In this document: piece by piece, positions 23,778-56,484 of the stretch | How positions within the stretch are numbered: position 1 is the stretch's first letter | Layout: each line of letters begins with the position of its first letter | Assembly: GCA_033220425.1 (NCBI GenBank) | Contig: CM065648.1 | Span: forward strand, 2,294,001-2,358,000 | Source: Lepraria neglecta | Taxonomy: Eukaryota; Ascomycota; Lecanoromycetes; Lecanorales; Stereocaulaceae | DNA: 64,000 nt | Direction of reading: 5' to 3' | Translations under genes and position numbers: made by a program | Notes under the pieces: generated by a model | Told to the model about the DNA's origin: nothing | Seen by the model: only the letters and a program-made list of their open reading frames with translations | The model's database searches: none

Positions 23778-24579
23778 GGCTCAATGTCTTGTGTTCTAGC
23801 CAACCTTATGAATTAGCCAATCTTCCCGAACCAAACTTATGATCTTCAGGCCAAAAGTGATAGACAAATATTCATAAGGCTCAGTAAGCATCGATTTTGA
23901 CATCAAGGACCCCAAAAAGAGTTCTCAGTGGATTGACAGATTGTGATTGTTCTTAATCATGCGAGATGTAGCTAGCGGAGACAGATCCACTCACCGTTGT
24001 GCTGCTTTACCATCCTTCAAACTAGAATACCGACTTCTGTAAAACCCCAAAACTGCAGTCATGCGGATCTGGTGATCGGTGATCGTTAGTATTGCTCAGA
24101 CCACAATCGCTCAATTGGCTGCGTTAAAGTGCGTTGGGTGCGCAGAAACGACTCGGAATTAGTCCGCTTGTGCGATTCGCTGATGCTTTAAGGGTCCAAA
24201 TCGTGCCAATGAGATAGTTTGAAAGATTTTGATTCTCGCAGTAAGCTACGGCACTAGCTCCTTCCGATAAGGTGCCTCTCTTATCAGTAACGTCGACCGT
24301 TGGGCTATTCCTAGCTGGGCACCCTTACTATCACTGAGCCACTCAGAGCACCCCAAACCGATCAGTCTCACTTATCAGGCATGGCTTTCATGCAAGTCAA
24401 TGCCTCAAAATACGCTCACCTTGACGTTGGAGTGAGGGGGCCAAAAAGCATTGCCACACAACCCCATCTCCGGGCCTGCTTCCCGAGCACACGCTTACTC
24501 TACTTAACTATCCAACTCTCTTCGCACTTCCAGACATCTGGTCTGATGATTCTAAGATGTTGCGAGAAGTCTGCTGCTC
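23778..24579. other. divergent intergenic region, no supported gene
   Basis: Upstream of SEN34 (minus) and of the second Zn2Cys6 regulator (plus). Open frames here are short and unconvincing. Confidence 0.5.
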
Positions 24580-27256
24580 ATGGCTACCACTACTAGAACA
24601 GTTCAGTCTCCTGTGAGCAAAGCTCCAGCCAGAAAGAAGTTCGCTGTCCCGCCAGTCAAAGTCGCGTGCCTTGCCTGGTATTATCCCACTTCCATTATTA
24701 ATTCTTGTTTCTTTTTCTATCTCCAGTATAGAGAGCTAACCTGTTCGCTAGCCGTGCCTCTCGCACTCGCTGCGATGGGAAGAAGATATGCACAAATGTA
24801 TGATCCTCCCAATACCGTGTACCGCCGGGTCTCAATGTTGCATTTTTAATGACCGAAATTCCTCCAGTGTGCCTCCAAAGGTAGAGAATGTTCATACAAG
24901 CCAAGCAAACGGGGAGGTCCTCGAGTTTCCAAGGCAAAGGCTACCCAAGAGCAGGAGCAGCCTCGGAACGAGGATGTCGATATGCTATTGGATGTGAACC
25001 TGGATGACTGTAGGCTAAAGCCGTCCGATGCGATTTGACTATCCCACTCATCGATTAACAGTTCTTTTTGATCAAATGCCGTCGTTCATCGATCCTGGAG
25101 CAGGACTCAATCAATTGGACTTTTCCCAGGACAGCGACTTTATTTTTGACAGTATCTTCACCTATCGCCCTGATGATACCAGCCAAGAGAATGGGACCTC
25201 CATCGCTTCTGGACCGGGCTCAGACACTACCGAATTAGGCCCGATCGTGAGATTATATGGTAGCGACAGAGACATGTAAGTCCACGTCGCTTTCACATTT
25301 TGCCCTTCATTCTTATTGCTCTGCCTGCGCAATGATCTGACCCAACTTCATAGTCTGGATGCGTATTATGTATTCATTCATCCATACTTCCCTGTATTGC
25401 CGCCTCCAGTCTCCACGCCTGTATGGGATCGCCCCTTAGCTGGTCACATGGAAGCGCCCAGTCCGGCCGGCGATTTCGAACCATCTTCTCCAATTAGTCT
25501 TGCAATATCAACGATCTTAGCTCTGGTTCCCCATCCCGATGAAGTGGATCCTTTGAACTCAGTGTCGGTACTTTACCGAAGGAAATTTGCTCATTCGTTT
25601 GCCGAGTCGACTATGGAGAGCATCGAGATCGAGTCTGAAATCCTTGACTCCGATTCTTCACCATCCCGCGCTCTCACCAGAAACTCACCTTCATGCCGCC
25701 GTCAACCGCTTCATCCCAAAGTGCCTGTTGAGTTGGAAAGTATCCTTGCACTTTGCGTTATGTGTATCTACGAGTATGCTCAACGCGGAAACCTGAGTAA
25801 GATGCGCAGCCGTGCCGGACAAGCGCTGGTTCTAGCCATGGATAAGTCTCTTCATTCACAAGGGGACAGCGAAGATGATTTTGCGGAAGCGAAACGTAGG
25901 GCTTGGTGGATGTGTGTGAGTATTAACCGTCTTCAGCAAATCTTTCGGTAATGCTAAGGCTTTTCCGGATCTTTTCAGTACACCTGCGTATGCCAAGGGT
26001 CCATCGTTAGCAGTACGGTAAGTTTAGCTGAATGATAGTTTTGATCTGTTCTCCTGTCAGCTAATGTACCTTTTGGTTACAGCCTCCCGCAATCTCGGTA
26101 CATGACCCTAGATTTACAACAAAATACCCAAGCAATGCAACAGACCCGGACGTACGTGGACCTAGCTTGACCTCTTGATTTAAACTTCGAAGCCGGACTG
26201 CAACTAATTGACTGACACAGGCATGGTCCATCTTCTTGCAGTCTCAACAGACAATTGTTGCTGCCACTCAATTCATAATCGATCAGAATAAGGCACTGGA
26301 ATCAAAAACTAACTTAGCCTACGTGTATGAGAGAATGCAGGAGCTCAACAGCATCATGGAACCCTTGATTGCTAGGGCTGATACTTGGATTCTTGAGCCA
26401 GGATCCAGCCTGCCGGTCGATCAGTCCGAGACTGTTGTTGCACAAGCTCTCAAGGGCATGGCGCGCATCAAGCTTAATAGTGCAAAGATCAAGATCCATC
26501 GCTATTGCGCCTTTTCGGACACCCCAATATTCTCCGAAAGGCACTGCGATCTTAAGCCGGCGGCACGGGACGAGCCGATGCAAGATGGAGAGCAAGGTGG
26601 AGCAGGGCCCAGGTCTGCTTGTGCTTGTGGTAGTTTGTTCGAGGACTCGTCAGCCTCAACATCTTCACAGCCTTCAACCTCTCCATTTTCATCGCCTTCG
26701 TCATCTTTGAGCTCAGCGTCCGGCACCAACCCATCCATTTCCGAGTTCCTGGGTTGCAATATGCCATTCAGCAGCCATCTCTCAGCCAAGTTCTGCTTGA
26801 AGGCCGCCCTGAGCATCGCCCAAGCTTTCGAAGCTTTGCCATACCCAAATACCAGCGGTCTCCAAACCTCACCAACTCAGACCTTTTCGAATTCTAGCAA
26901 GGCTCCCCGTACAATGCCGGCGTTCGCCTGCTGTGCAATGCAGAGTAGCTATGCGATGCTGATGCTCTGTCGCAAGACTCGGGCAACGAATGAAGGGTCA
27001 CTGTACGGTCGAAATGACCAGATGGTCAGCAGTCTACTAAGTCAGCTTCGTCAAGGTTTGGAAAAGGTAGTTGGAGCTTTGGAAAATTTTTCGCTCAGCT
27101 TTGAGGCGTTAAGTGGGATGCGAGGCAAGTATTCGTTTCCTCTTCAGTTACCTGTGATTGATTGCTCGCTTGGATCCAATGGAAGAGAAATAGCTGACCG
27201 TCCTTCTAGATCAAATCAAAGGGGCCGCGGATGCCGCTTTGCATGACGTACTGTGA
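24580..27256 (+). CDS. Zn2Cys6 transcription factor next to the O-acetylhomoserine cluster
   Basis: Nuclear regulator of 706 residues. Nine exons: 24580-24677, 24752-24797, 24868-25009, 25062-25275, 25354-25915, 25979-26017, 26083-26151, 26221-27124, 27210-27256. The first two introns cut the zinc cluster; joined, it reads ACLACRASRTRC then CTNCASKGREC, with all six Cys (residues about 30-57). The middle region has the fungal TF pattern (DAYYVFIHPYFPVLPPP, ELESILALCVMCIYEYAQRG, RRAWWMCY). The last intron uses a GC donor (GAG|GCAAGT); unspliced, the protein would stop at 27246 with a different tail. The gene ends 481 bases from the convergent homoserine O-acetyltransferase gene, so it is a candidate regulator of that cluster, by position only. 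Confidence 0.88.
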
Positions 27257-27737
27257 GATATACAACGTTATGAACAGTTCTTCGACTTTTCCGTCTTGCT
27301 AGAGAGACTTAGAGAAGAGAGACGGATATAATAAAGCTATTGTGTATTTGTTGAACATTAGAGAGATCATGTTGCTTGATCGTCTCCTTCTAATCTAAAA
27401 ATCTCATTTCGTCAAGCCGTTAATGATGTAATGTGTAAGAGTCTAAGGGAAATTAATATTTATATCACAATGTTGACGACATCACACAACGACCGATGAT
27501 CATCGAGCCAAATGGTTCAGCAGGACTTTTGACTATATAAGGTAGCTAGCTAGGCGGTGAGAGTAGTACACGACTATCTAGCAAGCTTGGCCTGCATACC
27601 CCAACCGAAGATCTGGAGGCAGACGTTCTCCAATAATCAGACACGCTAGCGATCATAGTTCTACACCATGTTTCCCATGAACAAAAGCCTGAAACTCCCA
27701 GGCGCCACGCACCGATACAAATCCTAGGGTGTCCTTG
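27257..27737. other. convergent 3' intergenic region
   Basis: Between the ends of the regulator and the acetyltransferase. AT-rich, nothing coding. Confidence 0.5.
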
Positions 27738-29247
27738 TCACCACTCCGATTCAACCTCACCAAAGACGCTGTCCTTGACAGCAGTGGATCCATTCCTGTT
27801 AACCTCGAGTAGAGGGGGCCCTTCGTACACCCATGGACATCGTTCTCGAAGCCGTTCAGTTATGATCTTGTCCAACTCTTCGAAGGCCAAAAGGAAACCA
27901 TCGTGGCCATCTGGCGAGTCCAGCGTCGCGAGAGTGGCATCAGGTAAATACTCTGCCAGTCTGACTTGCTGGTCCGGCTCAAAGAGGGCATCTGTATTGA
28001 CGCTGACGACCAAAGCCCTGGGTGGCGCGGCTTTTAGAACCTCCTTGAAATCCTCACCAGTTGGCTCACGCTCATGGTCTAGCCTCCCGTCCGTCACGTC
28101 GTGGGAGTCCATCTTATTCGTCAGATTGATGTAACAGTTTGCGTCGAACCGCTTGATGAATTTCTCTCCCTGGTAATTCAGATAGCCTTGGGCAGAGAAC
28201 ATTGGAGACCGAGCGCGGTGTACCGATTCGGCGGCTCCAATAGTTGCCTCAACGCGGGCACGCTTGGCGGACCGAAACGCATCGCATTTTGGATCCTGCC
28301 CCACACAGTTCATAGGCTCTTCATCGTTCGCAGGCTTGTCACCGTTCACAAGCTTCTCGGGATTTCCGCCTGCACCGTTCGTTGTTGCCTTGGGTGCGTT
28401 CTTTTTTGGATTGAATTTTCTCCCGAATCGACGATCAAAGGACACACAAGAACGATATGTGAGCATCGCGATCATTCTTGCTGCGGCCAATCCAGCAGTG
28501 GGCGGATGCGATATATCATAGTACCCGTCTTGATAATTCGCATCTGCATATATGCATTGCTTTTGAGTCTCGGCCCACGAAATCCCCCAGGCGCTGTGGT
28601 CTGCTGAAGTGGCGATTGGAATGATGGTGTTGACATAGCCAGGAGGGGTACATAACGGCCATTCCAGTGCTGCCATGCCACCCATAGAGCCTCCTATCAC
28701 CGCGGCTACCGTCTGAACACCCAGGGCATCAAGCACGAGTTTGTGTGCCCTTTGGAATAAGTCAGCCGACGAGACTGAGGACATCAGTAGAAAGCCTACC
28801 GAACATCATCTCTAATACTCGTCTCCGGAAATTCTGGACCATACGGCTCCCCAGTCTTCGGATTCGTCGTCAGGGGCGATGCTGATCCATACGGGGAACC
28901 GAGGAGGTTGCCACAAAAGACGAAATACCGCGTGTAATCGAATGTCTTCCCCGGTCTCAACAGCGGTTCCCACCAGTCTGAAATATCACTGCTTCCTGAC
29001 AGCGCATGGCATATGACAATAGCGTTGTCGCGCTTCTCATTGAGTACGCCCCATGTCTTGTATGCGATCTCAACTTTTTCAAGCACAGGCCCTGAGTCGA
29101 GAGGTAGAGCTGAGATTAAAGCGAATTTCTGGTCTTTTATTAAATCAACATAGGGATTCCTCCTCCCAGGATTATAATCGAGTTCTGTAGCACCAGTCAG
29201 AACCACGCTCGTCTGATTTCAGGAGAGCGATTCTTACGAGTCGTCAT
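27738..29247 (-). CDS. homoserine O-acetyltransferase
   Basis: Alpha/beta-hydrolase enzyme that makes O-acetyl-L-homoserine from homoserine and acetyl-CoA. 468 residues in three exons: a 10-base first exon 29247-29238 (ATGACGACTC), then 29184-28801 and 28750-27738. The tiny first exon is inferred because the main frame has no ATG; splicing yields MTTQLDYNPGRRNPYVDLIKDQ. Motifs: YKTWGVLN, VICHALSGSSD, GNLLGSPYGSASP, the nucleophile Ser in GGSMGGM, and the catalytic Asp/His near the C-terminus (SVNTDALF, DGHDGF). It has the long fungal insertion between core and cap (about residues 270-340), rich in Asn, Lys and Ala. Divergent to the nitrilase. Equivalent enzymes are yeast Met2 and Fusarium FUB5; a serine O-acetyltransferase activity is possible in this family. 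Confidence 0.92.
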
Positions 29248-29722
29248 ATTTGATTAACAAAGCCACACGGGTAGGAATTTTCTGAGGCGTCTACCATTAC
29301 TGCCATCCTCCACCTAAAGCTTTTAGACCGTCTAGCTATATGGAGCATCTTATTCGGCATGCTCCCCGCGAACTGTTGCACAAGGTTGTTTTGGAGTTTG
29401 ATGTTCCCTCTGTGCTATCAATCCGGGATCTGCGCTTTCGGGATTTGCTATTGCATCAGCTATCGGCAAACGCCTTGCATACAACATTTCGCTCGTGCCA
29501 AACCCCACACAATTCTCCCCACCTGCTTGCATGATATAATATCGATTTATATCCGAGAATATATTGGTGGTGTTGCAGACGCTGCTATTAGTCCACGTCA
29601 TCGCTGCGAATTCCATATTTACAAGCCACCAAATATCTATTCAATAATCAATCCGCGATCCAGAACGCCCGTTTTTTTCCAGCTAGCTATCCATCAGCAC
29701 TTTTGCGAAAATCAGACCGACG
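29248..29722. promoter_or_regulatory. bidirectional promoter, acetyltransferase / nitrilase
   Basis: 475 bases between two divergent starts. Contains AAATCCCGAA on the minus strand at 29437-29446, a 10-mer also present in the other divergent promoter of the cluster, and a nearby CCGGGAT at 29423-29429. Role inferred from position only. Confidence 0.45.
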
Positions 29723-31079
29723 ATGCCAAGGACGGAAGAGATCGTTAAGGTCGCTGCTGTGCAGGCTGCTCCGGTGTCCTTCGATCTTCCCAAAAGTTTG
29801 GCAAAAGTAGCACACTTCACCACGGAGGCGGCAAAGGCCGGTGCTGATCTAGTAGTATTCCCGTAGGGCACAAGTTCCTTGTTTTTTGGGCTGCTGTGCA
29901 TGCATCTAGATGCATGCCTGGGGGTTTATCGATTAGTGCTAACGCTTTTTGTGCAGTGAAGGGTTCCTATCGGCTTATCCTTGGCGCTATGCTTTCGATG
30001 CTACTATTGGTGCAAGGGAGCCTCGTGGTGAGTAAACCCTAAGCTACTCCTCATGGGGCGATTTTCATACACCAGACTGCTGATATTGTTGTGCTCAGGT
30101 CGACAATGGTATGCGAAGTACTACGACTCTGCCGTTGCGATCCCTTCGGCGGACTTTGATGCCCTGAGCCGCACCGCGAAGGAGAATCATATCTACCTAT
30201 CCGCTGGTATCATAGAACAGGACAGCAGCACGCTCTACTGCACGGCTATCCTGATCGACAGAGAAGGCGTGCTTCTACACAAACACAGGAAAGTAAGTCT
30301 TCCTTAACAAGTAAATGTTGACTGCCTTTCCATCTGACCTTGACAGTTAATACCAACAGCAGCTGAACGACTCGTCTGGGGTCGTGGTGCTGGAGACGGG
30401 CTCGTTGTGTCTGATACTGAAATTGGAAAGGTCGGAGGTCTCATATGCTGGGAGAATTACATGCCAGCTGCCAGACTGGCGCTGTACCAGAAAGGAATCG
30501 AGATCTATGTCGCGCCTAATGCTGATGATTCACCTTCCTGGACGGCTACTATGCAGCATATAGCCAAGGAAGGGCGGTGCTTTGTTATTAACTGCAATCA
30601 GTTCTGCAAGGTAACGCTCTCATGTCCTTTCCCTTTCCTCTTCTCCCCTTCTTCCCCTTCCAACTGTATTGCCCCCTTCCCAAAAGCTCGCTATAACAAT
30701 ACCCAGGTCTCCGATTTCCCACCAACCTACCCCCCTTCGCCGCCACCAACCCCAGCGACAAGAAACCCGACGGCTCAGTCTGGGAAGCAAACGACATACT
30801 ATCCCACGGCGGCTCATGCATCATTGGACCATTAGGCACGTTCCTAGCTGAGCCAGTTTGGGACAAGGAGGCGATTCTGTATGCGGAGTTGCCTATGACT
30901 GTGCTGACGGAGGCGAAGATGGATTTTGATGCTGTGGGGAGCTATTCGAGGCCGGATATTTTGTGAGTGCATTTTCCTTTCTTGAAGGGGAAGCGGGGGA
31001 TTTGGTGAAATGGCTGACATGAAGGAACAGCCAATTGAAGGTTAACACCGCCGATAGCACGAACGTGAGCTTTGTTTGA
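29723..31079 (+). pseudogene. nitrilase, complete but for a one-base frameshift
   Basis: Carbon-nitrogen hydrolase of the nitrilase branch, which turns nitriles into carboxylic acids plus ammonia. Six exons: 29723-29862, 29957-30027, 30099-30292, 30347-30610, 30707-30962, 31031-31079. The catalytic triad is present: Glu in FPEGFLSAYPW, Lys in LLHKHRKLIPT, Cys in GGLICWENYMP. Late motifs HGGSCIIGPLGTFLAEP and GSYSRPDIFQL are also there. In exon 5 the frame entering (VSDFPPTYPP) and the frame leaving (ATNPSDKKPDGSVWE) differ by one base. The shift coincides with a run of six C at 30730-30735, where seven would give 324 residues. Upstream splice choices do not fix it. It may be a sequence error or a recent break. 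Confidence 0.8.
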
Positions 31080-31919
31080 TGAGTGGTTCAAGGACGTGTC
31101 CATGGAGGATGAATGAACAAGGAAAGGTAATCCACAGAAAGGAAGTGAGGAGGTGGTAGATGATAGAGATACATAGCTTGCCCAAAAATATCATCTCCTT
31201 CTAACATTGCATCATTTCTATTTCCAGTTCCATTCCAACCAGTTTTTGCAAATCATTTCTAGTAGAGTACTCGACTGCTCTCGACATCATTGCAGCCAAT
31301 TCCCATAAATTCTTCTCTATAAAACTACCTTATGGAATTCTGCGCCAGCATAGCATTCCATATCACAGAACTGCCATCATCTCTCTCCTTCCGCACTACA
31401 CAGCGCAGCCGTCGTCAACCTGGCTCCACCAACTCTAAGAAAAATACCATATCCTATGCGCATTTTCTACTTTCAAGAATCCAAGGGGCTCAGTAGTAAA
31501 TATCCATTTCATTGGAGCTGTCTCGAGGGAAGGAAGAAATCTCAGTGTTCAATTCCGCGCCGTAGAGCAGATTCTACCAACCTTAGGAGCTAGGAATCTG
31601 TACAGTGGTGCTTTGAATTGGGCTGATCTTGCGTGGTTCCTTACTTCAGGGAGGTTTAGATTGGAGTGTATTTCCTGTGGTCTGGCGTGTTTAAGTATGG
31701 TTGCTTCCGCATTCGTTTGCTTTGAAGAGAAAAGTTGTTTTTAAATTATTTGGAAGATGATCATCACAGGAATCTCGCATTACTAATTTCGACATGAAGC
31801 CAGAACAAACGAGAACACCAAAGTTCATTGACTACCTATGTAATATACAAAAGCGATATAAACTCGCCAACACCAGCCACCAAGACATCCAAGCGTCTAA
31901 AAGACATCAAGGGAAAAAT
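31080..31919. other. convergent intergenic region
   Basis: 840 bases between the 3' ends of the nitrilase and the sulfhydrylase. No open frame or RNA gene recognised. Confidence 0.5.
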
Positions 31920-33564
31920 CTAAGCACTCATAGCCATCTGCCTCTTCGCATACCCCTCCGTACCATCCGTACCCGGCTTGGGTCCTCTCGTCATCAAATC
32001 CTTCATGAATCCACCCGTAGCGTGCGTCGACGCAGTCTTGAAAGGATCAATGCCCTTCTCCGCTGGCTTAAGACCAGCAGCAACGAACGCTTGCTCAAAG
32101 TCGTAGATGATATCTTTGATATCTTCCAAGCCGGGCGAGACGCGGATGAGATCGGGGGTGACACCGCCCTTGATCTTCTCCTCGTCGGGAAGCTGTTGGT
32201 GGGTGGTGACCCATGGGTGGATGATGAGGGTTTTGGCGTCGCCGACGTTGGCGAGATGGGAGCAGAGTTTTAGGTTGTCGACGACGGCGCGGACTTCGTC
32301 GATTTTGCCGGCCTGAGTGATAATCATCAGTCCATCATTTCCTGGAACAACGAAAACTTAGTTGAGTGGGTACATACCACACCGAAAGTAAGCACACCAC
32401 CAGGGCCATTGGGCATAGTCTTCTTGCCGTGCTCGTAGTCCTTGTGCGACTTCAGACCCGGGTAGAGTACCCAGCTGACGCAAGGGTGGGCCTCGAGCCA
32501 TTCAGCGAACGCCTGGGTGTTCTCGACGTGCTTCTTGCCGCGGAGGGCGAGAGTCTCGAGACCCTGGAGGAAGAGCCAGGCGTTGAAGGGACTCATACAG
32601 GGGCCCAAGTCACGCATGGAGTCCATGCGTAGTTTGGCTGCGAGGGCTTTGTAGCCGTATGTCTCCCAGAAGCGCATACCGTGGTATCTAGAACCGAGGT
32701 CAGCGGTTAAGGGTTCAATGCCGGGAGCAAGCAATTGCGAAGGACTGTGCGTACCCGTCTGCGGGCTCAGTGAAGCCGGGGAATTTGCCGCTGGCAGACC
32801 AGTCGAAGTGGCCACCGTCAATGACAATACCACCCATGCTTGTACCGTGGCCGCCAATCCATTTGGTGCAGCTGTGAGTGACGATATCAGCGCCGAGAGT
32901 GATGGGTCGCGAGATGTAGCCGCCCATGCCGAAGGTGTTGTCGATGATAAGGGGAATTCCAGCATCGTGAGCGACTTTGGCGATGGCGGTGATGTCGGGA
33001 AGATTGTGCTTAGGGTTTGAAATTGTCTCGATGTAGACACATCGGGTCTTGTCGTCAATTTGCTTTGCGATTTCAGAGGCGTCGTCGCCCTCGACGAACT
33101 TGACCGTGATGTGGAACTTCTTCATGTAGACACGGAACTGGTTGTATGTGCCTCCGTAGAGCCAGCTTGTGCTGACGAAGTTTTGACCGGGTTCGCAGCA
33201 GTTTGTGATGGCCATGAACTGTAAATCCCAATCAAAGATAGGCTAATATTGGAGGTGTGTCATTTCTTACCTGAGCGGCGTGACCTGATGCAGTTGCTAC
33301 GGCACCAACTCCACCCTCGAGCATGGACATTCTCGTCTCAAAGATGGTGTTTGTGGGATTGCCCATACGGGTGTAGACGTAGCCGTCTTTCGACCAGGCG
33401 AACTTGGTGGCACCATCGGCCGCGTCTGTAAAATTGTATGCACATGTCTGGTAGAGAGGAACGGCACGAGCTCCGTTGATGGGGTCTGGCTCTTGGCCAC
33501 CATGCAAGGCAATGGTTTCCCACCCGGGTTCTTTGACATCCCTGAGAGATCCTGAAGCGACCAT
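31920..33564 (-). CDS. O-acetylhomoserine sulfhydrylase-type PLP enzyme
   Basis: Cys/Met-metabolism PLP enzyme of 486 residues, class gamma-elimination/replacement: it swaps the acetate of O-acetylhomoserine for another nucleophile, normally sulfide. Exons 33564-33271, 33218-32755, 32687-32378, 32312-31920. Visible: [13 protein letters not shown] and [15 protein letters not shown] at the start, YTRMGNPT, the PLP-lysine motif [25 protein letters not shown], and [11 protein letters not shown]-type block ([15 protein letters not shown]). A C-terminal extension of about 35 residues follows the usual end (after IIYDFEQAF) and finishes RQMAMSA. Divergent to aspartokinase across 723 bases. It could be the housekeeping Met17/CysD or a dedicated paralogue like FUB7; the sequence alone does not decide. 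Confidence 0.92.
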
Positions 33565-34287
33565 GATGAAGGTTGTATTGTTTTCAGTAGTGTATGTGTT
33601 AATTGGTAGATATTGTTGTGTAGAGATCGAGATAGAAGAAGCTGCTGCAGCCCCATTATATGTGAGAAGGGTGCATATACACTCATGGTATCGATCTTCC
33701 CGATCTGCAGATTGGCGTTATCTGCTGCCACATTCGTCACGTTGCGCATGCTTGATAGAGTCGAATTGGTCTTGACCTGTTCGTTTTATGTCTCTAATCC
33801 CGAATTTGGAACCTGACTTTCAAATCCCGAAGCTAGTCACGTGACCTTGCGGAGAACAACCACGATAAACGCATCAGCCATCATTGGCTACCGATCAACA
33901 ACGTGAAAGATGTGTGTCTCTCCGGAAGCAGAAAAGATCGACGTCCATGGTCGTCGTCCCCGAATGTCAAATCCTCGGTCTTTGCATGGACCCCCAGTGC
34001 ACGACGGTGAAACGGAGACCCTGTCCTCCACCCGATGCGGAGATTAAATGGGTGTAGAGATCCGGAGCGTAGAGTCTGGACGTGACAAAGATATTTGTGA
34101 AATTGAAGGGATCTGAAATGCCAGTGTAGGCTACTGCACATGTGACAAGCGCTGACCGTATTCTTCGCCACTTTTTGAAGTTTTTCGCCTCGAAGCATAT
34201 AATCCGAGACTAGTTGTCACGCAAGAGAAACGCATTCCTGCCTCTCTCAAACCTTAGTATTTGTACTCCCTGCTTGAGTTGTTCAAA
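33565..34287. promoter_or_regulatory. bidirectional promoter, sulfhydrylase / aspartokinase
   Basis: Contains the palindrome GTCACGTGAC at 33836-33845. Its CACGTG core is the Cbf1-type E-box known from sulfur-regulated yeast genes. Two copies of AATCCCGAA lie just beside it at 33796-33804 and 33823-33831; the second extends to AAATCCCGAA, matching the other cluster promoter. No coding signal. Confidence 0.5.
33836..33845. promoter_or_regulatory. GTCACGTGAC palindrome (E-box / Cbf1-like site)
   Basis: A perfect 10-bp palindrome about 270 bases from the sulfhydrylase start and 440 from the aspartokinase start. CACGTG is bound by bHLH factors such as Cbf1, which with Met4 controls methionine genes in yeast. 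Use here is inferred. Confidence 0.5.
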
Positions 34288-36505
34288 ATGAAGGAATTAG
34301 ATAGTAGCTACGTCGTGCAGAAGTTTGGGGGTACCAGTTTGGGCAAGCTCCTGGACACGATCACTGGCACCATAATTCCCGGCTCCCTTGAGTCCGATAG
34401 AGTGATTGTTGTTTGTTCAGCTCGGTCTGGGACGAGCAAGTCAACAGGAACGACACAATTACTGCTCGAGGCCATCAACCATGCTACAGACCCTAGCGCA
34501 GGTTCTGGAGAGAGACTTGATTCCATCATAAACCTGATCCGAGACGAGCATTTGAAGGCCATTGAATCGGCCGTGGTAAGCGGGTCTGTACAATCTGGTC
34601 CGCTAGAGGAGAGTATAGTTGAAGACTGCGAAGGCCTCCGGAGCTTTCTTCATGCGGCCCACGTAAGTCAATTTCCATAGCCGCCATAGTTGTATCAAGA
34701 ACTGAATCAATTAATTTACCCATTCAACTAGACCATTGGAGAATTGTCTCCTCGCTCGCAAGACCGAGTAATTGCCCTTGGTGAAACATTAGCATGCCGC
34801 ATAACGGCAGCGTCATTGGAGAGCAAGGTTCGTCAAGCCTCCTCTATGCTATCGAGACACTGGTGGACCTTCTCCTAATCCGACACATTAGGGTGTTAGT
34901 GCCGAAGTCGTGCTATTGAACGACATAATTGAGCAAGCTTTCCAAGGCAGCCCACAAGGACCAGAAGCAGCATATGAGGAGCTTGGTGCTCAATTTTTTG
35001 AAGTTATCTCTCAAAAGATTGGCGAAGCTGTTGTGAAATGCGGCGACAAGGTGCCCGTAGTCACCGGTACGTGGTTGATAGATGCAAAAGCGAGAGTATC
35101 CACTAACAAACAGTACAGGTTTCTTTGGAAAGATGCCAACTGGTCTTCTTCAAAGCGTTGGCCGTGGTTATTCTGATCTTTGCGCAGCGATGTGTGCCGT
35201 AGGAGTTGGTGCTCGAGAACTCCAAATCTGGAAGGAGGTCGATGGAATATTTACTGCAGATCCAAGCAAAGTACCATCCGCAAGGCTACTTGCCACGGTG
35301 ACTTCGGAAGAAGCAGCTGAGTTGACTTATTTTGGGAGTGAGGTTAGTAATTTTCACGTCTTTTGGGAGTTCCCTCAGCCTCCAGATTGCTGTCAAGTTT
35401 TCACCTATGTTCAGCTGACGTTGCGTGATCTAATCATCTAGGTCATACATCCCTTGACCATGGAACAAATCCAGAAGTCAAACATTCCCTTGCGGTTAAA
35501 AAACGTCAAAAATCCTGATGGAGCTGGGACGGTCATATATCCAACCAGTCTTCCTTCATATTTCGCTTCGGTTGCAACGTCAAACGGCTCCAACGGCTAC
35601 AACGGCAATACAACAACAGCTTATTCCGGCACCTCGACACTACAATCTGTCTTCATGAGAACCAACGGTTATCATGGTGACGGAGATATGCAAAACCCTT
35701 ATCGGCGGACACCAACGGCTATGACAGCCAAGGATTCCATTGTCATCATCAACGTGCTCTCTCACAGCAACAGCAAATCCCACGGCTTCTTAGCCAAGAT
35801 TTTTGAGCGACTAGACCATCACAAACTCGTAGTGGATCTAGTTACAACAAGCGAGAAATCAGTCAGCCTCGCTGTGTCGTCGGCGACGGAAGACGAAAGT
35901 GCTCTCAAGAAAGCAACGGCTGAGATCGGAAAACTAGGCACTGTAAGTTAGAGAAGATGGCTTGCAACAGCTCGAAATACGAACGTTTTCTGACATTATG
36001 CGAACCAAACAGGTCTCTATAACCACTGGAGTGTCGATTATCTCTGTTGTGGGCCACAAGATGCGTAACATGGTTGGTATTGCTGGTGAGCTTGCACTTC
36101 GCTCTGCTGGATGAAAGAAAAGATCTGTTGACTAATGGCCGCTTTGTTCTTCGCAGGCGAGGTATTCTCTACCCTTGCAAGCGCCAAAATCAATATCTAC
36201 CTTATTAGTCAAGGAGCAAGTGAGATAAATATATCGTAAGTGATGTATCCTGAGAGCCTTGACTCGCCTGGTGACTGATAAATATGTAGGTTCGTTGTTA
36301 AGGAAGAACAAGCGCTGGTTGCCATGAACGCAGTCCATGCGAATATTTTAAAGATTCCGGCTTTGTCAGAGCAGCAGAATAGCTTCTCTTACGGTCAGTA
36401 TAGTAGTGGACTTTTGACAGTCCATCCCTGCATCAAGCAACCTTCTAGCTCTAGGAAAGACATTGGCTAACGTATTTCGTGAGTAGGACCTTGGTTCTTT
36501 TGAGA
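34288..36505 (+). CDS. aspartokinase
   Basis: Aspartate kinase, first step from aspartate toward homoserine, threonine and methionine. 547 residues in nine exons: 34288-34662, 34732-34827, 34892-35066, 35119-35342, 35442-35942, 36013-36085, 36157-36235, 36290-36393, 36489-36505. Catalytic region: VVQKFGGTSLGK, VVCSARSGTSK, GETLACR, GFFGKMPTGLLQSVGRGYSDL, WKEVDGIFTADP and the EVIHPLTMEQI block. Two C-terminal ACT regulatory domains follow (INVLSHSNSKSHGFLAKIF; VGIAGEVFSTLASAKINIYLISQGASEINIS). A Gly/Asn/Thr-rich insertion of about 45 residues lies between kinase and ACT parts. Equivalent to yeast Hom3 and Fusarium FUB3. The ACT1 segment TTSEKSVSLAV departs from the yeast STSEVHVSMAL, which could alter feedback control (inference). 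Confidence 0.93.
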
Positions 36506-40972: not shown

Positions 40973-42133
40973 ATTGCTGAAGTTGCCATATCCGACCTTT
41001 CCCTTAAGAAAGTGCAGTTTCTCATGATTGACTCAGTTTGGCCGTACCGTTCGCGTCTCAAGGAAGGGTGGCACGTGTTTTGCTATCCTTGGCCTCGATA
41101 AATTTTGAGGGCAAAAGTCTAATGGTTATGATGGATGGTGCACTGGCCTTTCAGGCGCCACAAACCTTTCCTAGAAGCCCAAAACACCTTGATCTAGGGT
41201 GAGCTTTCCCAGAATGGGAAAGCAAGGTCTTGCGCCGTGATTGGAAACCAATCAGGTCAGACTCAATTGCTGACCACTGCCGCAAGAGGTTGAGGTTTAA
41301 GTGATGATAACAAAGGAACCCAAAATACAATCCGTCAACATTACCTCACATCAAGAAATACGAGCAATGTCTTCATTGTACTTTCTCGTCATGGCGTTTA
41401 TGCAGTGTACTCATACTGAAACCCGCAGTTATCCAGCGAAAGAAATCTCATGGAATTTGTGTCTGGAAAACTCAAGTTCTCCACTTTCAAAATTCTATGT
41501 GTGGGAGCAGCCTTACTCTCAATATTCCTCCCTTGCAAGAAAAGCTACTGACGAATGTGTCATCTCTGTGGTTGATCGGAAGCTGGCGGATAATCATAGG
41601 GTAATGTCGGAGCTTTCGTCAAAAATTTGCATATGTGTTTATACTTCTGGACGCCTCGTTTTAAGCTAATGATGGCCTTATTGCTCAGTACATTCAATAG
41701 CAAGAGATCTATACCCTGCACGTTCCACCCTTTGTGGATCGAGGCTGAGGAAGTTTCCATTTGCTTTCTAGGGCTCTGGACGCCAAGCTCGAACTTAACG
41801 GCGAATCGCTGCCTTGGGGTTACCAATAGGGTTAATGCACTGACATAGTTTGAGCAAGATATCTCAGCCTTACTACCCTCGAACATGTTTCAGAACGCCA
41901 TCAATAGCTCGCGCGAAAGCTATCGCTATGTTTGGAAACGCGACTCCACTCCCTGGCGATGAGTCCTCTTAACAACAGCGAGTGGTAATGCGCACTGGCC
42001 CACTTGGAACTGTGGCCTGGTATAAGAGCAGTCTTCACTCCCATTGAACTTCTTCCGTCCTTCAACCTCATTCGCTCGTTACTTTTACTTCACACACCAC
42101 CACACTCGTTAATCACCTGCGTTCACTGCAGCC
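40973..42133. other. intergenic, no supported gene
   Basis: An open frame at 41301-41669 has no recognisable domain and poor composition. The last part is the promoter of the wall-protein gene. Confidence 0.45.
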
Positions 42134-43366
42134 ATGCAGTTCAGCATCGAATTGGTGGTCTCCTTCATGGCCTTCGCCATGGCCTCCCCATGTTTGGGAT
42201 GCAAATGGCACGGCTATGGCACAGGCACCGGCACCGGCACCGGCACCGGCACCGGCACCGGCACCGGTTCCGTGCCAACTGGCAACATGCCCATGTCTAT
42301 TGGCGGCACAGCTCCTCCAATGTCAACCAGCACACCTCCTTTCCCCATGAGAAACAGCACTGCCCCGATGCCCACTGGATCAATGGCAACCGGCACTCCA
42401 ATCGCTGTTCCATTCCCTGTCACCATCACCATGACCAGGCCTTGCCCAACTTGCCTACCTGTACCAGTGACCTTTACCAGCGGCATCCCCGTCACCAAGA
42501 GCTTCCCATTCATCCAGACAGTGACCAAGCCTTGCCCTACCTGCCTTGTGGCTTCCATCTCTACAATCCCCAACGTCCCAGTCACCACCGTCACTCTAGA
42601 TTTCACCACTGGATTTGCTGTCGAGACCATCACAGAGGAAGTCGTCGTCTCGAGTTGCCCACCTGTCCTTGTTACCTCCACCGCTGCCAACGGAGCTGTC
42701 ACCGTGGTGACTGAGACTGCTGTTGTGGTCCAATCCACCGCCGCCAACGGCGAAGTCATCGTTGAGACTCAGACTCTGGCTCCAGCCATCGCGACTGCCG
42801 CTACTAGCCAAATTGCTGGTGAGACTGCCACTACTGTTCTGGACACTTCTACTGCCGCCAACGGAGTTGTTACCGTTGAGACCGTCCCTGCTGTTCTGGT
42901 CACTTCCACTGCCGCCAACGGAGCTATCACCGTTGAGACTGTCCCTGCTACTTTAGTCGCTTCCACTGCCGCCAACGGAGCTATCACTGTTGAGACTGTC
43001 CCTGCTGGTTTGGTCACCTCCACTGCCGCCAACGGAGCTATCATTGTTGAGACTTTTCCTGCTGTTTTGGTCACCGCCACTGCTGCCAACGGAGCTGTCA
43101 CCGTCCAGACTCAAGCCGCTGCCCCAGGCACCGCACAGAGCCCTGCTACCGCTCAAAACCCATCTACCAACCAGAGCCCTGCTACCAACCAGAGCCTTGC
43201 TACCAACCAGAGCCCTGCTACTGCCCAGAACCCATCTACCAACCAGAGCCCAGCCACCAACGCCAATACTGGTGAAACTCCTCTAGCATTTACTGGCGCT
43301 GCCACCTCATTCAGGGTGCCTACCTCCATGATGGCTGCGTTCGCTCTATACGCTATGGTCTTGTAA
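42134..43366 (+). CDS. repeat-rich GPI-type cell-wall protein
   Basis: Single exon, 410 residues. Signal peptide at the start (MQFSIELVVSFMAFAMASP), then a GT-dipeptide run coded by (GGCACC)n at about 42225-42268. A Thr/Pro region follows with two copies of a TKPCPTCL-like Cys motif. From about residue 175 to 335 come 19-residue units of the form STAANGAITVETVPAVLVT, roughly seven or eight, the middle ones nearly identical. After them is a NQSPAT/NPST repeat. The end (hydrophobic MMAAFALYAMVL after a small-residue site) fits a GPI anchor signal. Ser/Thr content suggests heavy O-mannosylation. Likely a wall or adhesin-like surface protein; ligand unknown. Confidence 0.85.
   Translation: MQFSIELVVSFMAFAMASPCLGCKWHGYGTGTGTGTGTGTGTGTGSVPTGNMPMSIGGTAPPMSTSTPPFPMRNSTAPMPTGSMATGTPIAVPFPVTITMTRPCPTCLPVPVTFTSGIPVTKSFPFIQTVTKPCPTCLVASISTIPNVPVTTVTLDFTTGFAVETITEEVVVSSCPPVLVTSTAANGAVTVVTETAVVVQSTAANGEVIVETQTLAPAIATAATSQIAGETATTVLDTSTAANGVVTVETVPAVLVTSTAANGAITVETVPATLVASTAANGAITVETVPAGLVTSTAANGAIIVETFPAVLVTATAANGAVTVQTQAAAPGTAQSPATAQNPSTNQSPATNQSLATNQSPATAQNPSTNQSPATNANTGETPLAFTGAATSFRVPTSMMAAFALYAMVL
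42845..43135 (+). repeat. intragenic 57-bp minisatellite
   Basis: Near-identical 57-bp units coding STAANGAITVETVPAVLVT follow each other within the wall-protein gene, flanked by more diverged copies from about 42670. Such arrays change copy number by recombination or slippage. Confidence 0.8.
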
Positions 43367-48447: not shown

Positions 48448-48818
48448 CGTTCTAGATCTAGAAGGGTTTGGAGTGGTAGGCCTAATTTATTCAATAAGTC
48501 AGACCGCATTGGATTAGAAGCTGTTGTCCAGATGCCTGGACTTCGTTGCATTGATGCTAGTCTCGTCTCAACAATCCCTTTGAAGAAGGAGATTATACCC
48601 TTCGTGATCTAGCAAAGGCGCCTGCATGCATTCTCTGTCACTCACGCTAGGTTCACTAACACGTACTCTCTAGGAACTCGATGAAAACTTGTAAGCGAGG
48701 ACTGACATATCTAGCTGACCAGGAGTCCTTGTGGTATGTTCTGATTCACACTTAGTATCCTGTCACATTCGATCTTCGAGTCCCTCTCTACTACATACAC
48801 AATTCCACAAAAACAACC
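48448..48818. other. intergenic, no supported gene
   Basis: Between NOP53 and the beta-propeller gene. Nothing recognised. Confidence 0.5.
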
Positions 48819-49862
48819 ATGGCTCCACTCGAGACCAAATGGCAGTCCAATTTCGCCTCCGGATACGAAATCACCAGCATCCTCGCCACCAACAACGGCG
48901 TCTACACTGCCAAAAACGGCGCAGTTTTCCACCTGGACGACAACGGCAGTGTGACAGCATCTAACAACCTCCCCGGGACCGGCTACAACGAAGTCCGACT
49001 GGCAGCATCTAACGGTGGCTCACTCCTCATTGCAGGCACGAACGGCTACGTTGTAGGTCTGAACGCGCAATCACTCCAAGCGCAATGGACGACAGACTTG
49101 CCAGATTCCGGGTATGATGTGACGAACGTTTCCTGTGTCGACGGCCGAGTCTATACCGGCTGCAACGGCCATTTATATCGTCTCAGAATCTCCAACGGTA
49201 ACGTGGAAGCTCACAATCCGCTATCGAAACACGGCCACAATGAGGTACGCTTTGGGCACGCCGCGAGTTCCAAGACCGTGGTAGTAGGAACTGATGGCTG
49301 GGCTGTTGGCCTCAGAGACGAGACCTAGGAGGTCGTCTGGACCAAAGAGCTACCTGGTAGCGGTTATGCTGTCTGTTCCGTTGTTGGCACGGAGAATGTT
49401 GCTTATGTTGGCACTGCTGGAATCGTCTATCAGCTGGAAGCTAGCACAGGCAAGCTGCTGAATCGGAATGATTTGAGCGGTGTTGGGTCGCAAGAGGTTC
49501 GCCTGGCGTTGAATAAGGGTGCCAATATGCTGTATGCTGGTACTAATGGGTACGGTGTCGGATTGCGGCCGGACAATGTTGGGACGGTGTACTCGACTAG
49601 CTTGCCTGACTGCGGTTATAATGTCACGAATGTTGTATGCTGGAACGGTAACGCCTTCTATGCATGCAATGGATACGTGTATGCAGTCAATAGTCGGGGA
49701 GATATGACTGCTCGGAATAATCTCGATAGGTATAGCAAGGATGAGACCCGGCTTGCTGTTGATGGTCAGCTTTTTGTGGGCTTGAGGGGTTTGCACTGGG
49801 GTTATCATTGCGCTGATCTGAGCGACCAGTGTGTTGACTTTGTCGTAAATCTCAACCTTTGA
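48819..49862 (+). pseudogene. beta-propeller-like repeat protein split by one in-frame TAG
   Basis: One frame of 348 codons without introns, broken only by TAG at 49326-49328. Before and after it the same repeat continues: units of about 40-50 residues with GYNEVRLA / GYDVTNVSC / GSGYAVCSVV / GSQEVRLAL / CGYNVTNVVC and AGTNGYVVGL / GTDGWAVGL / AGTNGYGVGL. This is a PQQ- or WD-like beta-propeller built from paired blades. No signal peptide. Sequence context is RDET-stop-EVVWTKELPGSGY; a change of CAG to TAG would explain it. A shorter 169-residue half-protein, read-through or sequence error are alternatives. Function unknown. Confidence 0.65.
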
Positions 49863-51735: not shown

Positions 51736-52393
51736 CTTGGCGGACCAATGACGACACTGTCCTCTTCTTGAGGTTGATGGCTGTCAGGATGTTGAGGTAT
51801 AAAAGACAATGAAGCGTCAAGCTGGAAAGATTCATGGTAAAAGAAGTGAGAGAAAATATGAGTGAATTTTGAAGGCGAAGACTTCTAAATTAGCTAAAGC
51901 GAAAAATTGTACATCGTGTTCCGAGTCCGACGAGGCGTCCATAGAGTACAGTGACCTCCTAATTGATATTAATGGGGAGATGCTTGCAACAGCCTTCTGC
52001 TCATCTAACATCGACCTCGGTGTCTTGACATCATACAAAGATTTAGTAATTGAATGAATAAGACTCCTCGTTATTATACACAGGAAGTAGCAAATTGTCA
52101 ACCGAATGCCTCTCCGACACGTAGAAAATCCAGAGATTCATAGTCAATGGTGATATGTTGCACACATACAGGTTGAGTGTTTGCCTGCCACGGCCCCAAC
52201 GTTAAGATTTGGCTCCTCCCACAGCCTCTAACCCGATTCGTCAATCTCTAAATTGACTGACACCTTTGCGGAGCCAGCATCTATCGAGTCACCCCCATCA
52301 AACGACACGACCAAGGCCAACAATCACCCTCCTTCGGCGTTCATCTATCCCTCACTCATACAACACCCTACTGAACTCACTAAACCAATACGT
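51736..52393. other. divergent intergenic region
   Basis: Between the F-box-like gene and the large disordered-protein gene. Short open frames only. Confidence 0.5.
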
Positions 52394-55300
52394 ATGTCAT
52401 CGATCGACCATGTTCACGAGCAGGAAACATCCGACCCACCGGCGGAGCAGATAGCAGTCGATGGCAGTGTTGGCTCCGATACCGATACAGGAGGACCTCT
52501 GAGATCTGAAGCAGCAAGCAAGGATGAATCCGATACTCAGCATCATGCACGCTCAAACTCCGTCAAGAAGCCCATCACATTCAAGGCGGTATCAGTCACG
52601 AAGAATTTCCTCGCCAAAGCGGGCACGCCGACCGCACCAGCTGCCAAGACCAACGGCGATACTGGTAAGATCACCTTTCATGAAGCTTGCAACTTGCGAC
52701 TGACCGAGGTAGCCACAAACACAGCAGCTGTCGGAAACATCATGCCACCAGCACCGCGCCCCCGACTCGTCGCCAAGACCGCAAGCGGAAACAAGGCCTC
52801 AACTCCTAAGTCCTCGCACTTTGGATCCAGACAAGAGGGTTCGGGACCGGATCCAATGCAAGTCTGGAATAGGAATAGAGGTATATTGCTATCCAGCATC
52901 CTGACATAGCTCCTGTACTGACAACCTGTCCAGCTGCCCCACAACCTACACCAAAGCATTTCACAGACGAGGAGCTCAAGCAGCAGTATGGCATACATCT
53001 TGCTACAAGACTCCAGGCGGATGCGGATGGTAAAGAGTCCAAGTGGGCGGATATCGACGACGATGAAGACGATTGGGCGCCGGAAACGATCGAGTGGAAC
53101 GACGGTACGAAGATAACACTATCACAAAACGAACCTGCGGCCCTGCTTGCGGAAGAGCAAGCTAGAGCTATCGTCGAGAAGGACCGCCAGGAAGAAGAGG
53201 CTAAAGCCAAGCTGGCAGCGCAGCAAAAGCCTACGACCACAGTTGGGCCAAATGCGACTGTATTGAAACCTCGCTCTGCTGCTCAACCAAAGTCTGGCGG
53301 ACTCGTCCTGAAAACTCCCTCGGAAAAGCCAACACTAGTCGCGAAACCCTCAGCTCCTACCCCTACGAGATCTCCATGGGCACCTTTACCACCCGTTGAC
53401 AAGGTCCCTCCCGTTGATATCAATCCTCCTAGTCAACAATCTACTTCAAGACCACAATACAATGATCCTTATGGAAATAATGCTATGCCACCTCTAGCCG
53501 CCATGGAAATCGCTGCCGATGATTTCACTCGAACAAGACGGGATAATCAGAACGCCGGACAGCTATACAACGCACAATCTGGACAGTACGAGCCAGCCAA
53601 TGCTGGCCGCCGAGGATCAGTCCGGAAAGATCAAAATTTCAGATCTCCTTCCCTGCTCCAGAGAGGCTCAGCACGCGACCAACACGAACCCGCAGAACCA
53701 TCAGCTGCATTCCAAACCCACCGTTCCGGCAGCCAACAAGATGCCGCTCCGTGGGCGCGCCGAGGCTCCTCCACTGTGAGCGGAGAGAGTGGACCGCAGG
53801 GTCGACGAATGTCAACGAGCAAGGGATCCGATATGATAAGGATACCTATAGAGATGCTCCAGCAACGTCGTGATTCGCAGCATTCGCAAGCACTACAATC
53901 TCCGTCGACTCCTGGCCATGCACAACCCGCGTTTCCTCACCGTAGTGCCTCTCCGGCTCAACAGCTGCCGCACTCAGCAACGCAGTCTCCTATAATGCAG
54001 CATTCTCAGTTATCGCAAGAAGCGCGACCAACAGCTGTATCCCCATATCAGAGCAGACCGGACCAAGCCGCAGCTACCGTACGTGATGATGTGGCGGTTC
54101 AGATGCAAATGATGAAAGAGAAGCGAGAGATGGCGATCAAACGCAAGAAAGAGGAAGAGGAGCGGGAAGAGGCTGCCAAGAGAGAGCGGATTCGATTGAA
54201 GATGGAAGAATTAGGCTTGCCTCCTCTAGAAGAAAGACGCGAGCCTGCAAAGGAGGAACCTGAGAAGAAACAGATCGAAAAGAGACAGGCAGAACCGGTT
54301 AGTGTCGAAAAGAAGGAGCCGGAAAAGCAGGAAGTGTCTCCAAAATCTCGAGTTCCTAAACCAGCCCAAGAAGTATCTACATCGACATCGCGGTCTCCAC
54401 CAAAGCCTCCAGCGCCTGATGCGTCTGGAATGCCTCAACAGTATGGGATGATGAAATTACATGGTGCCACCTCAAACAATGTGCCACAGCCTCCAAGTGA
54501 ACGCTTGACTGCGGAGAAGACCAGGCTTAAAGCACCAAGTCAGATGATTTCACCCCCAGGACTCGAACCCAAAGCTGAGCAACCCGAGCCTCTACCCTCA
54601 CCAAGGGTCAACGGGGTAACGCCCTCGAAGCATCCGGATGCGCTTATCTACCGAGCGCCAGATGCCCCAAACCTGAACATAGCCCGAGAGGCAAGGCAAC
54701 AGCCATGGAACAACGCTTCAAGAGATCCCAATGCATATACAGGCTGGAGTGGGCAGGGTATGGCAAGAGAACCGTCTGCGTCCAGTAGTGTATGGGGTTT
54801 ACCATCTCATGCCAGGAACCTTGGAAATGGTACCTTTGACAGGAGCGTACAGAGGCCGCAGTCGAGGCCGCAAGAGCAATTCGCATCGCCAGCCCTTGAG
54901 CCAATTGGCCCACCAAGACACTTACAGCGGCCGCGCGAGACATCAGAACTTCGATCGCACGAGACGGGTACGTCCCCTGTTGTTGAGGACTTTCAAACAA
55001 TCCCAACCTTCCCTCCCTCTGAGGCACCGACTCCGGCAAATAGACCTGAACTCCCAGGCCCCCAAGCGAACGGTGACGCACATGTTGCACCTCCTCAATT
55101 CGGCATAGGCCCACAATTCAAGCCTCAAATCAACAATGTCGAGCGGCCTGTACGAGGTCCTGAGCCACAGAAGTCGACTCTAGTTGCATGGGGTAACTTT
55201 CAGACTTCGGATGCCGAGAGAAATCGTCAAGCTGCGCAACAATATGCGGCCAGGCAGGCAGAAGAAGCTCGATTGGGCATTCGACGACCAGAACCTCAAC

Positions 55301-56484
55301 TGCCGATTATGAATGAGACTTGGCGGCAGGCTAAAGTTGATGAGCATGGTCAGCGGCAGATCGTTGGTGTCGTCAAAGGACAGAACACTCATGATCGATT
55401 TGTGGGCCCACAGATTAACGGAGACGTCCAAACCCCCTTATTCGCAACTCCAGTCAGTTTGCCTCCCTACACTGGTGGCGGTATAGGTCGTGGATCGCGT
55501 TTCTTCCCAGCCGGAACAGCCTTGCATCCGCAGTATCAGAATGGAGCACAGTTTCCGCCTGGCTATCGTCCTTCGTCTTCACCCCCGCCGCCAGAGGATG
55601 GGTCTCACTTCCATCCGGCCTACGTTCGTGACTCTATGCGCCCACACGTCAACCTGCCTTTCGTCAAGGATAAGCCAAAAGTCAAACTGCCACCTACCAT
55701 TAACACTCCAGTGCAGTCTCCACAGCTGGCAGAGGTCCGAATGATCCCCTTACGTGCGGCATCGCAACCATTAGTAAACAACCCTTCCTGGCAAGATAGG
55801 TTCAATGGGCTGCTGGGCGTCAAAAAGCTTTCGCCAGAGAAGAAGTTTATCCATGTCGCTGAATTTTCAGCTACGAAAGTACCTCTAGACTCACCCGCAG
55901 TGCAGATCTCTGCAGCGGTCTCGCTTCCTCCAAAAACTGGAGAAGCCATTAGTCGGTCATTAGAGGTAGCTTCCAAGGCCATGGAAGACGAAGAAGCGCT
56001 CTTCGAAAATCGTGAATTTGGATCCCTCCCGGCTGTGCAGATTCCGACGCAAGCTCCAGAGGTTGGGTGGTCTGCTGTTCAAGCTCCCAAGCGAGGTCAA
56101 TACCGGAATTCGAAGTTGAGCAAAGAAGTCGAATCTGCCAGCAAGGAGGTCTTCATTGAGAAGGACATCGCCTCCTCAAATGGCGGCGTCTTGATCTTTA
56201 TCAGGATGTTGGGAATGCAATTCCCAAAATCAGTGTCGATGTCACGTCCGGGATCTCAGGGTGCTAGTCATGGGCAATCAGCTTCTCGTCCTTACCAAGG
56301 GCGAAATCCGAATAAAGGCTTTAAGTCTCGGGAGAGCTCAGGGAACTTCAGTAATGATCAAAAGAATACTCAGCGTGGACCACAGAGGAATACTCCACAG
56401 AGTGGTCCACCTCCACAGGCACGCGGACAGCCCAGCAAAAATCATCCTGCTTGGGGCCAGCGTGCTACGAATCCGGTCCATTAG
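52394..56484 (+). CDS. large disordered protein with WADIDDDEDDW motif
   Basis: 1345 residues in two exons, 52394-52880 and 52934-56484. I do not recognise an enzymatic domain. The conserved-looking part is near residues 165-245: TPKHFTDEELKQQYGIHLATRL and WADIDDDEDDWAPETIEW, then an acidic/basic helix. This resembles the N-terminal region of BAT2/PRRC2-like RNA-associated proteins, but only loosely. The rest is Pro/Gln/Ser-rich and disordered, with a charged helix (MQMMKEKREMAIKRKKEEEEREE, about residue 570) and a C-terminal RG/Gln-rich end (SRPYQGRNPNKGF ... RGPQRNTPQSGPPPQARG) that could bind RNA. The frame is open upstream of 52394 but without an ATG. A role in mRNA control or granules is inference. 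Confidence 0.75.

Follow-up and report, generated by a model that had tools for sequence, protein, structure and literature searches.

An additional, clustered set of O-acetylhomoserine genes beside a NIT4-related nitrilase in Lepraria neglecta, with a tentative route from cyanide to glutamate or glutamine

Fungi encounter cyanide of both plant and bacterial origin. A known fungal enzyme for cyanide is cyanide hydratase (PMC7503981), and the natural substrates of fungal nitrilases are largely unknown (PMC6214922). Flax routes cyanide through cysteine and β-cyanoalanine, not through O-acetylhomoserine (OAH) (PMC7407305). A bacterial OAH sulfhydrylase is a γ-cyano-α-aminobutyrate synthase (PMC9317851), and this synthase is listed as a bacterial route of cyanide assimilation (PMC13257105). 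In fungal specialized clusters, pyridoxal phosphate (PLP) enzymes carry out γ-substitution reactions with varied nucleophiles (PMC10367076). No eukaryotic gene cluster for cyanide assimilation via homoserine was found in the literature searched: a query combining nitrilase, OAH, aspartate kinase and gene cluster returned no match, and the available part of PMC4198257 describes no such cluster. Here we analyze a 64-kb stretch of DNA from the ascomycete Lepraria neglecta (C3:2294001-2358000 of a 42.0-Mb genome assembly in 11 contigs; hereafter the window), which contains a compact five-gene cluster consisting of a regulator and two divergent enzyme pairs. Our preferred reading, to which we assign a probability of about 0.4, is that the cluster's enzymes would join OAH and cyanide to form γ-cyano-α-aminobutyrate, which would then be converted to glutamate or glutamine.

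Gene models were assembled by hand from the DNA, spliced and then translated. Together with family profile matches, they bear out the five genes and positions proposed in an initial annotation of this sequence. The genes and the two promoters that lie between divergent partners are as follows (window coordinates).

24580-27256, plus strand: Zn2Cys6 transcription factor, 9 exons, 706 residues
27738-29247, minus strand: homoserine O-acetyltransferase (MetX/Met2 type), 3 exons, 468 residues
29248-29722: divergent promoter of the acetyltransferase and nitrilase, with one TTCGGGATT at 29437-29445
29723-31079, plus strand: nitrilase, NIT4-related, 6 exons, stop in the last exon located by eye
31920-33564, minus strand: OAH sulfhydrylase-type PLP enzyme (γ-substitution), 4 exons, 486 residues, TKWIGGHG motif
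33565-34287: divergent promoter of the PLP enzyme and aspartokinase, with tandem AATCCCGAA at 33796-33804 and 33823-33831
34288-36486, plus strand: aspartokinase with an ACT domain, 9 exons, 552 residues

The start codons are separated by 475 bases in the acetyltransferase/nitrilase pair and by 723 bases in the PLP enzyme/aspartokinase pair. The reading frames of the regulator, acetyltransferase, PLP enzyme and aspartokinase are intact, the nitrilase being the exception. The abundance of introns in the window genes is a fungal trait. In Pfam, the regulator matches Zn_clus above the cut-off (PF00172, E 3.7e-6) and scores 21.4 bits against Fungal_trans, slightly below the cut-off of 23; its final intron (27125-27209) starts with GCAAGT and is a GC-AG intron in the hand-built model. 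The acetyltransferase exceeds the cut-off of NF001209 (350 bits; cut-off 331) and falls below the 500-bit cut-off of the MetX model TIGR01392 (416 bits); among solved structures, it is matched first by deacetylcephalosporin C acetyltransferase (2vat, 314 bits) and second by MetX (233 bits). The aspartokinase contains AA_kinase and ACT domains (Pfam) and scores above the cut-off of asp_kinases TIGR00657 (294 bits), while the nitrilase carries a CN_hydrolase domain (PF00795).

The initial annotation had proposed that these genes form a dedicated set and called for a search of the genome for second copies. Genome-wide protein searches found separate copies of the aspartokinase, acetyltransferase and PLP enzyme beyond the window.

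C8:1136975: second aspartokinase, 35-57% identical to the window gene (tblastn pieces)
C8:3536954: Met2-type acetyltransferase, 43% identical overall to the window gene, pieces 58 and 44% (tblastn)
C6:2716080: CysD/Met17-type PLP enzyme, 54 and 67% identical to the window gene (tblastn pieces)
C8:1009974: further acetyltransferase relative, which we take to be serine-acetyltransferase-like

The names Met2-type and CysD-type are our own labels for these host copies. The copies of the three enzymes are scattered, with two on C8 (2.4 Mb apart) and one on C6, and the exons of the second aspartokinase, as read, contain no internal stop. With each of the three primary enzymes encoded a second time outside the window, the genes within it can be regarded as a dedicated set. 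The data support an additional, clustered set distinct from the housekeeping methionine genes, and we consider it very likely that a dedicated OAH cluster exists. Chance linkage of sole methionine genes, the alternative raised in the initial annotation, is ruled out by the second copies: each of the three enzymes is duplicated.

The PLP enzyme passes the general OAH and O-acetylserine sulfhydrylase model (OAH_OAS_sulfhy, TIGR01326; 590 bits, above the cut-off), and its TKWIGGHG motif, whose lysine presumably binds PLP, is intact. Its closest solved structures, yeast Met17 (8ovh, 500 bits) and Fusarium FUB7 (8erb, 495 bits; the FUB7 structures encountered were 8erb and 8eqw), are nearly equal matches, and it is 49-56% identical to each of six aligned fungal and bacterial sequences (54% to Met17 and 49% to FUB7). 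Over 365 columns, the partial host C6 copy shares 67-68% identity with Met17 and FUB7. In a tree of seven sequences, the C6 copy clusters with Met17 and FUB7 (bootstrap 94), the bacterial enzymes form a second group (99) and the window enzyme branches alone; a grouping of the latter with Met17, for which the initial annotation had suggested a tree as a check, was thus not recovered. The window enzyme also deviates at 18 positions where all comparison sequences that cover the site (five or six) agree. From these comparisons, FUB7 seems to have split off from the housekeeping enzyme, and the window enzyme seems to be a separate, older branch. The initial annotation had likened the cluster to the Fusarium trio FUB3, FUB5 and FUB7, where FUB3 is an aspartokinase and FUB5 a homoserine acetyltransferase. 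The parallel holds for the types of enzyme; since FUB7 groups with the housekeeping copy and the window enzyme lies apart, the likeness is, for the PLP enzyme, one of type and not of descent. Derivation from the FUB trio was accordingly rejected for the PLP enzyme on the basis of its 49% identity to FUB7 and its separate branch.

Two apparent PLP gene remnants were observed elsewhere in the genome. A relic of a window-type gene is located at C2:3771211-3771303 (positions 812-904 of locus L063; 75 bp at 80% DNA identity). Its 31 residues are 68% identical to exon 1 of the window PLP gene and match the other PLP enzymes tried more weakly, and nothing in the surrounding 3 kb convincingly matches the remaining genes of the cluster. 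An apparently decayed Met17-type gene, with stops and frame changes, is located at C4:4630852-4632123 (minus strand, locus L052).

In the route that we propose, the aspartokinase would drive aspartate towards homoserine, relying on primary metabolism for the two steps in between, and the acetyltransferase would activate homoserine to OAH. The PLP enzyme would then swap the acetate for a nucleophile at the γ carbon via a vinylglycine-type intermediate. With cyanide as the nucleophile, the product would be γ-cyano-α-aminobutyrate, which the NIT4-related nitrilase would hydrolyze to glutamate and/or glutamine. The presence of an aspartokinase and an acetyltransferase in the cluster points to OAH rather than O-acetylserine as the acceptor, and, with a NIT4-related nitrilase adjoining, cyanide is the simplest nucleophile that would account for all four enzymes. 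The use of cyanide with OAH by the PLP enzyme, the action of the nitrilase on cyano amino acids and the identity of the product are predictions.

Among solved nitrilases, the plant β-cyanoalanine nitrilase NIT4 is by far the best match to the window nitrilase (243 bits), followed by a cyanide dihydratase (133 bits). The window nitrilase is 48% identical to NIT4, and both enzymes contain the Glu-Lys-Cys residues E48, K135 and C169. R67 is common to the window nitrilase, NIT4 and all 80 of 80 bacterial relatives, which were chosen by similarity as the best 80 of at least 587 confirmed matches. An interface arginine is conserved in plant NIT4 (PMC6214922), and R67 may correspond to it (position 80 in that paper). 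The window enzyme is NIT4-related, though not proven to be a NIT4, and as NIT4 handles a cyano-amino acid, this relationship supports the cyano-amino-acid idea. Two further arguments were set aside: one concerning substrate length, from A141 (leucine in NIT4), was dropped as alanine occurs at this site in 30 of the 80 bacterial relatives, and the invariance of K135 and C169 in these relatives was discounted as the fetch patterns covered both residues.

Several observations weigh against the cyanide route, and they concern the ancestry of the nitrilase, its reading frame, the promoter motif and the bacterial neighborhoods. A FastTree phylogeny was built from 85 sequences (the window enzyme, NIT4, two host nitrilases, a cyanide dihydratase as the root and the 80 bacterial relatives). 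In this tree, the window nitrilase is located outside an 82-member clade (support 0.966) that is composed of plant NIT4, the 80 bacterial relatives and host nitrilase C7:1833627, and its position beside this NIT4-containing clade has a support of 0.236. As it lies outside the NIT4 clade, the preference of NIT4 cannot simply be transferred to it. The host genome also holds further nitrilases, and no transporter or cyanide source was recognized. Compared by eye, the C7 nitrilase has an insert at the NitAb loop region, whereas the window enzyme has none. The region from C1:5073355 onward (about 1490-2715 of locus L032) encodes a nitrilase from a different branch. Its coding segments are spread over several frames, owing either to introns or to decay.

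The position of the nitrilase outside the NIT4 clade would also suit a dedicated cluster that makes some other γ-substituted amino acid, in which OAH would react with a carbon, nitrogen or sulfur nucleophile and the substrate of the nitrilase would be a nitrile group carried by the partner or by the product. Precedents for such an enzyme are FUB7, CndF, AnkD and FlvA, which use varied nucleophiles in fungal clusters (PMC10367076); FlvA joins OAH and α-ketoisovalerate (PMC8902786). The departure of the window PLP enzyme at 18 otherwise identical positions points in the same direction. However, the cluster lacks a backbone, oxidase or reductase gene, and no polyketide synthase (PKS) or nonribosomal peptide synthetase (NRPS) domain was present in 26 open reading frames (ORFs) of the window scanned with Pfam, two of which are pieces of the regulator; the scan did not extend to ORFs of at least 190 residues at 41989-42711, 48756-49325 and 52232-52906 or to shorter exons. 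For the ORFs scanned, this agrees with the initial annotation, in which no PKS was visible. Moreover, few nitriles that could readily serve as nucleophiles are known from fungi. We regard a different nucleophile as possible, though somewhat doubtful.

A second difficulty for the cyanide route is the reading frame of the nitrilase. It is displaced by a single base within a hexamer of C residues (30730-30735), and the translation of the six spliced exons meets a stop early in exon 5. Upstream of the run the protein reads NQFCKVSDFPPTYPP, which resembles its homologues (e.g. NQFSRRSDYPPDYP; D-F-P-P-x-Y-P pattern), while downstream the conserved HGGSCIIGPLG continues in another frame. The splice sites are ordinary GT-AG. 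The slip is either a homopolymer assembly error or a mutation that creates a pseudogene, and if it is real, the last step of the pathway would be lost in this strain. A GC-AG intron could restore an open nitrilase frame but was judged unlikely by eye, as the resulting residues lose the D-[FY]-P motif of the homologues. The slip, together with the C2 relic and the apparently decayed Met17-type copy on C4, would fit a decaying cluster, whose nitrilase recently became a pseudogene and whose remaining genes are being lost or have been re-used. Yet on either side of the slip the nitrilase has kept its splice sites and conserved motifs, and the other four cluster genes are intact. A run of six C residues is, in addition, a typical spot for an assembly error. 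We judge decay to be unlikely. The cyanide route presumes that an active nitrilase is produced. The suggestion of cyanide as the nucleophile, which the initial annotation offered as speculation, has thus gained from the type of nitrilase present and lost from its frame slip and tree position.

The promoters were compared for signs of shared control. An 11-mer with the core AATCCCGAA is common to both divergent promoters, and the three copies of this 9-mer in the 64 kb all lie within them (3/3). Three copies were reached in 3 of 100 whole-window shuffles. When both promoters were shuffled with dinucleotides preserved (n=2000), a shared 9-mer with three copies arose 46 times, a shared 11-mer 215 times and both 13 times; for random pairs of window stretches (n=1744), a shared 9-mer with three copies arose 67 times and a shared 11-mer 250 times. 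A tandem pair of the 9-mer, spaced 5-35 bases apart, occurs once in the 42-Mb genome, in the promoter of the PLP enzyme and aspartokinase, and is absent from the reversed control, and 23 other host loci (80545 bases) contain one occurrence of the 9-mer. The counterweight is that the motif was selected after inspection, that 17 copies versus 14.9 expected are found in the window when one mismatch is allowed, which is no enrichment, and that no more than part of the 9-mer, TCCCGAA at 23824, is present upstream of the regulator. We consider the shared 9-mer to be moderate evidence for joint control of both pairs: the cluster genes are probably co-regulated, and their control may lie with the cluster's own Zn2Cys6 regulator.

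These promoters also bear on the view that the cluster merely provides extra OAH or homocysteine, for sulfur use or for methionine under stress, with the nitrilase as a mere neighbor. The match of the PLP enzyme to the general sulfhydrylase model and its 54% identity to Met17 would fit such a role. We think it improbable, however, as the nitrilase and acetyltransferase have a 475-bp divergent promoter in common, the 9-mer in that promoter recurs in the promoter of the other pair, and all three enzymes are already present elsewhere in the genome.

Bacterial loci were also compared with the cluster (80 loci fetched by nitrilase similarity, 839848 bases, many with less than the full 6-kb flanks). 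In locus L074 (349-4405), from a Chloroflexi metagenome-assembled genome, an OAH PLP gene is divergent from an adjoining NIT4-like nitrilase, with a MetA-like gene next to it and a glutamate-dehydrogenase-like gene ~2.5 kb past the nitrilase; the MetA-like and glutamate-dehydrogenase-like labels come from reading translations. This neighborhood with a PLP gene occurs in only 1 of the 80 loci, and none of the 80 matches the window acetyltransferase or aspartokinase (tblastn, E 1e-5). Across the class to which L074 belongs, 25 of 249 genomes contain a nitrilase match at E 1e-60, and a PLP gene is present in 1 of 27 loci (1.5 kb on each side), again L074. This locus is a possible independent parallel; the support from bacterial neighborhoods is weak. 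Plasmid records matching the nitrilase number 859, every one of them below 60% identity.

The cluster is flanked by the following genes.

Left flank: ALG3, an eIF1A-like gene, an MFS gene and a tRNA endonuclease
Right flank: an ORF without Pfam match, a histidine phosphatase, GILT, Kei1, a Ras-family GTPase and Nop53

Two long frames lie further away in the window. The ORF at 58561-63012 (minus strand) encodes a NACHT-like NTPase with WD40-type repeats and presumably resembles fungal NLR-like proteins, while a 1201-residue open frame at 52879-56481 (plus strand) has no Pfam match at E 0.001.

The larger claim, that a dedicated eukaryotic cluster with its own regulator leads from OAH through γ-cyano-α-aminobutyrate to glutamate or glutamine, must at present be considered tentative and somewhat doubtful. 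If true, a clustered and regulated route from cyanide to a central amino acid would extend the nitrogen metabolism of fungi by a new branch and would assign a natural substrate to a fungal nitrilase. It would also mean that duplicates of methionine enzymes were recruited to specialized metabolism more than once, because the window PLP enzyme and FUB7 appear to be separate in origin.

Among known systems, the Fusarium FUB cluster has in common with the window cluster the three enzyme types that supply and use OAH; in the window, the aspartokinase, homoserine acetyltransferase and OAH PLP enzyme are clustered with a regulator. It differs in having a nitrilase and no PKS in the ORFs scanned, and FUB7 is 68% identical to the host C6 enzyme versus 49% to the window enzyme. 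The plant pairing of β-cyanoalanine synthase and NIT4 is similar in that a PLP enzyme that possibly installs cyanide accompanies a NIT4-related nitrilase. However, the plant route proceeds from cysteine through β-cyanoalanine to asparagine or aspartate, whereas the acceptor in the window would be OAH, which is one carbon longer; the window nitrilase branches beside the NIT4 clade and not within it, and the plant synthase belongs to another PLP enzyme family. NitTv1 and NitAb are fungal plant-type nitrilases that are active on β-cyanoalanine, and NitAb has an extra loop (PMC7503981), in contrast to the window enzyme, in which no insert is seen there by eye. Finally, the γ-cyano-α-aminobutyrate synthase of Bacillus stearothermophilus (PMC9317851) resembles the window PLP enzyme in family and in the reaction proposed, but it is bacterial, whereas the window enzyme is a fungal paralogue clustered with the genes for OAH supply and a nitrilase.

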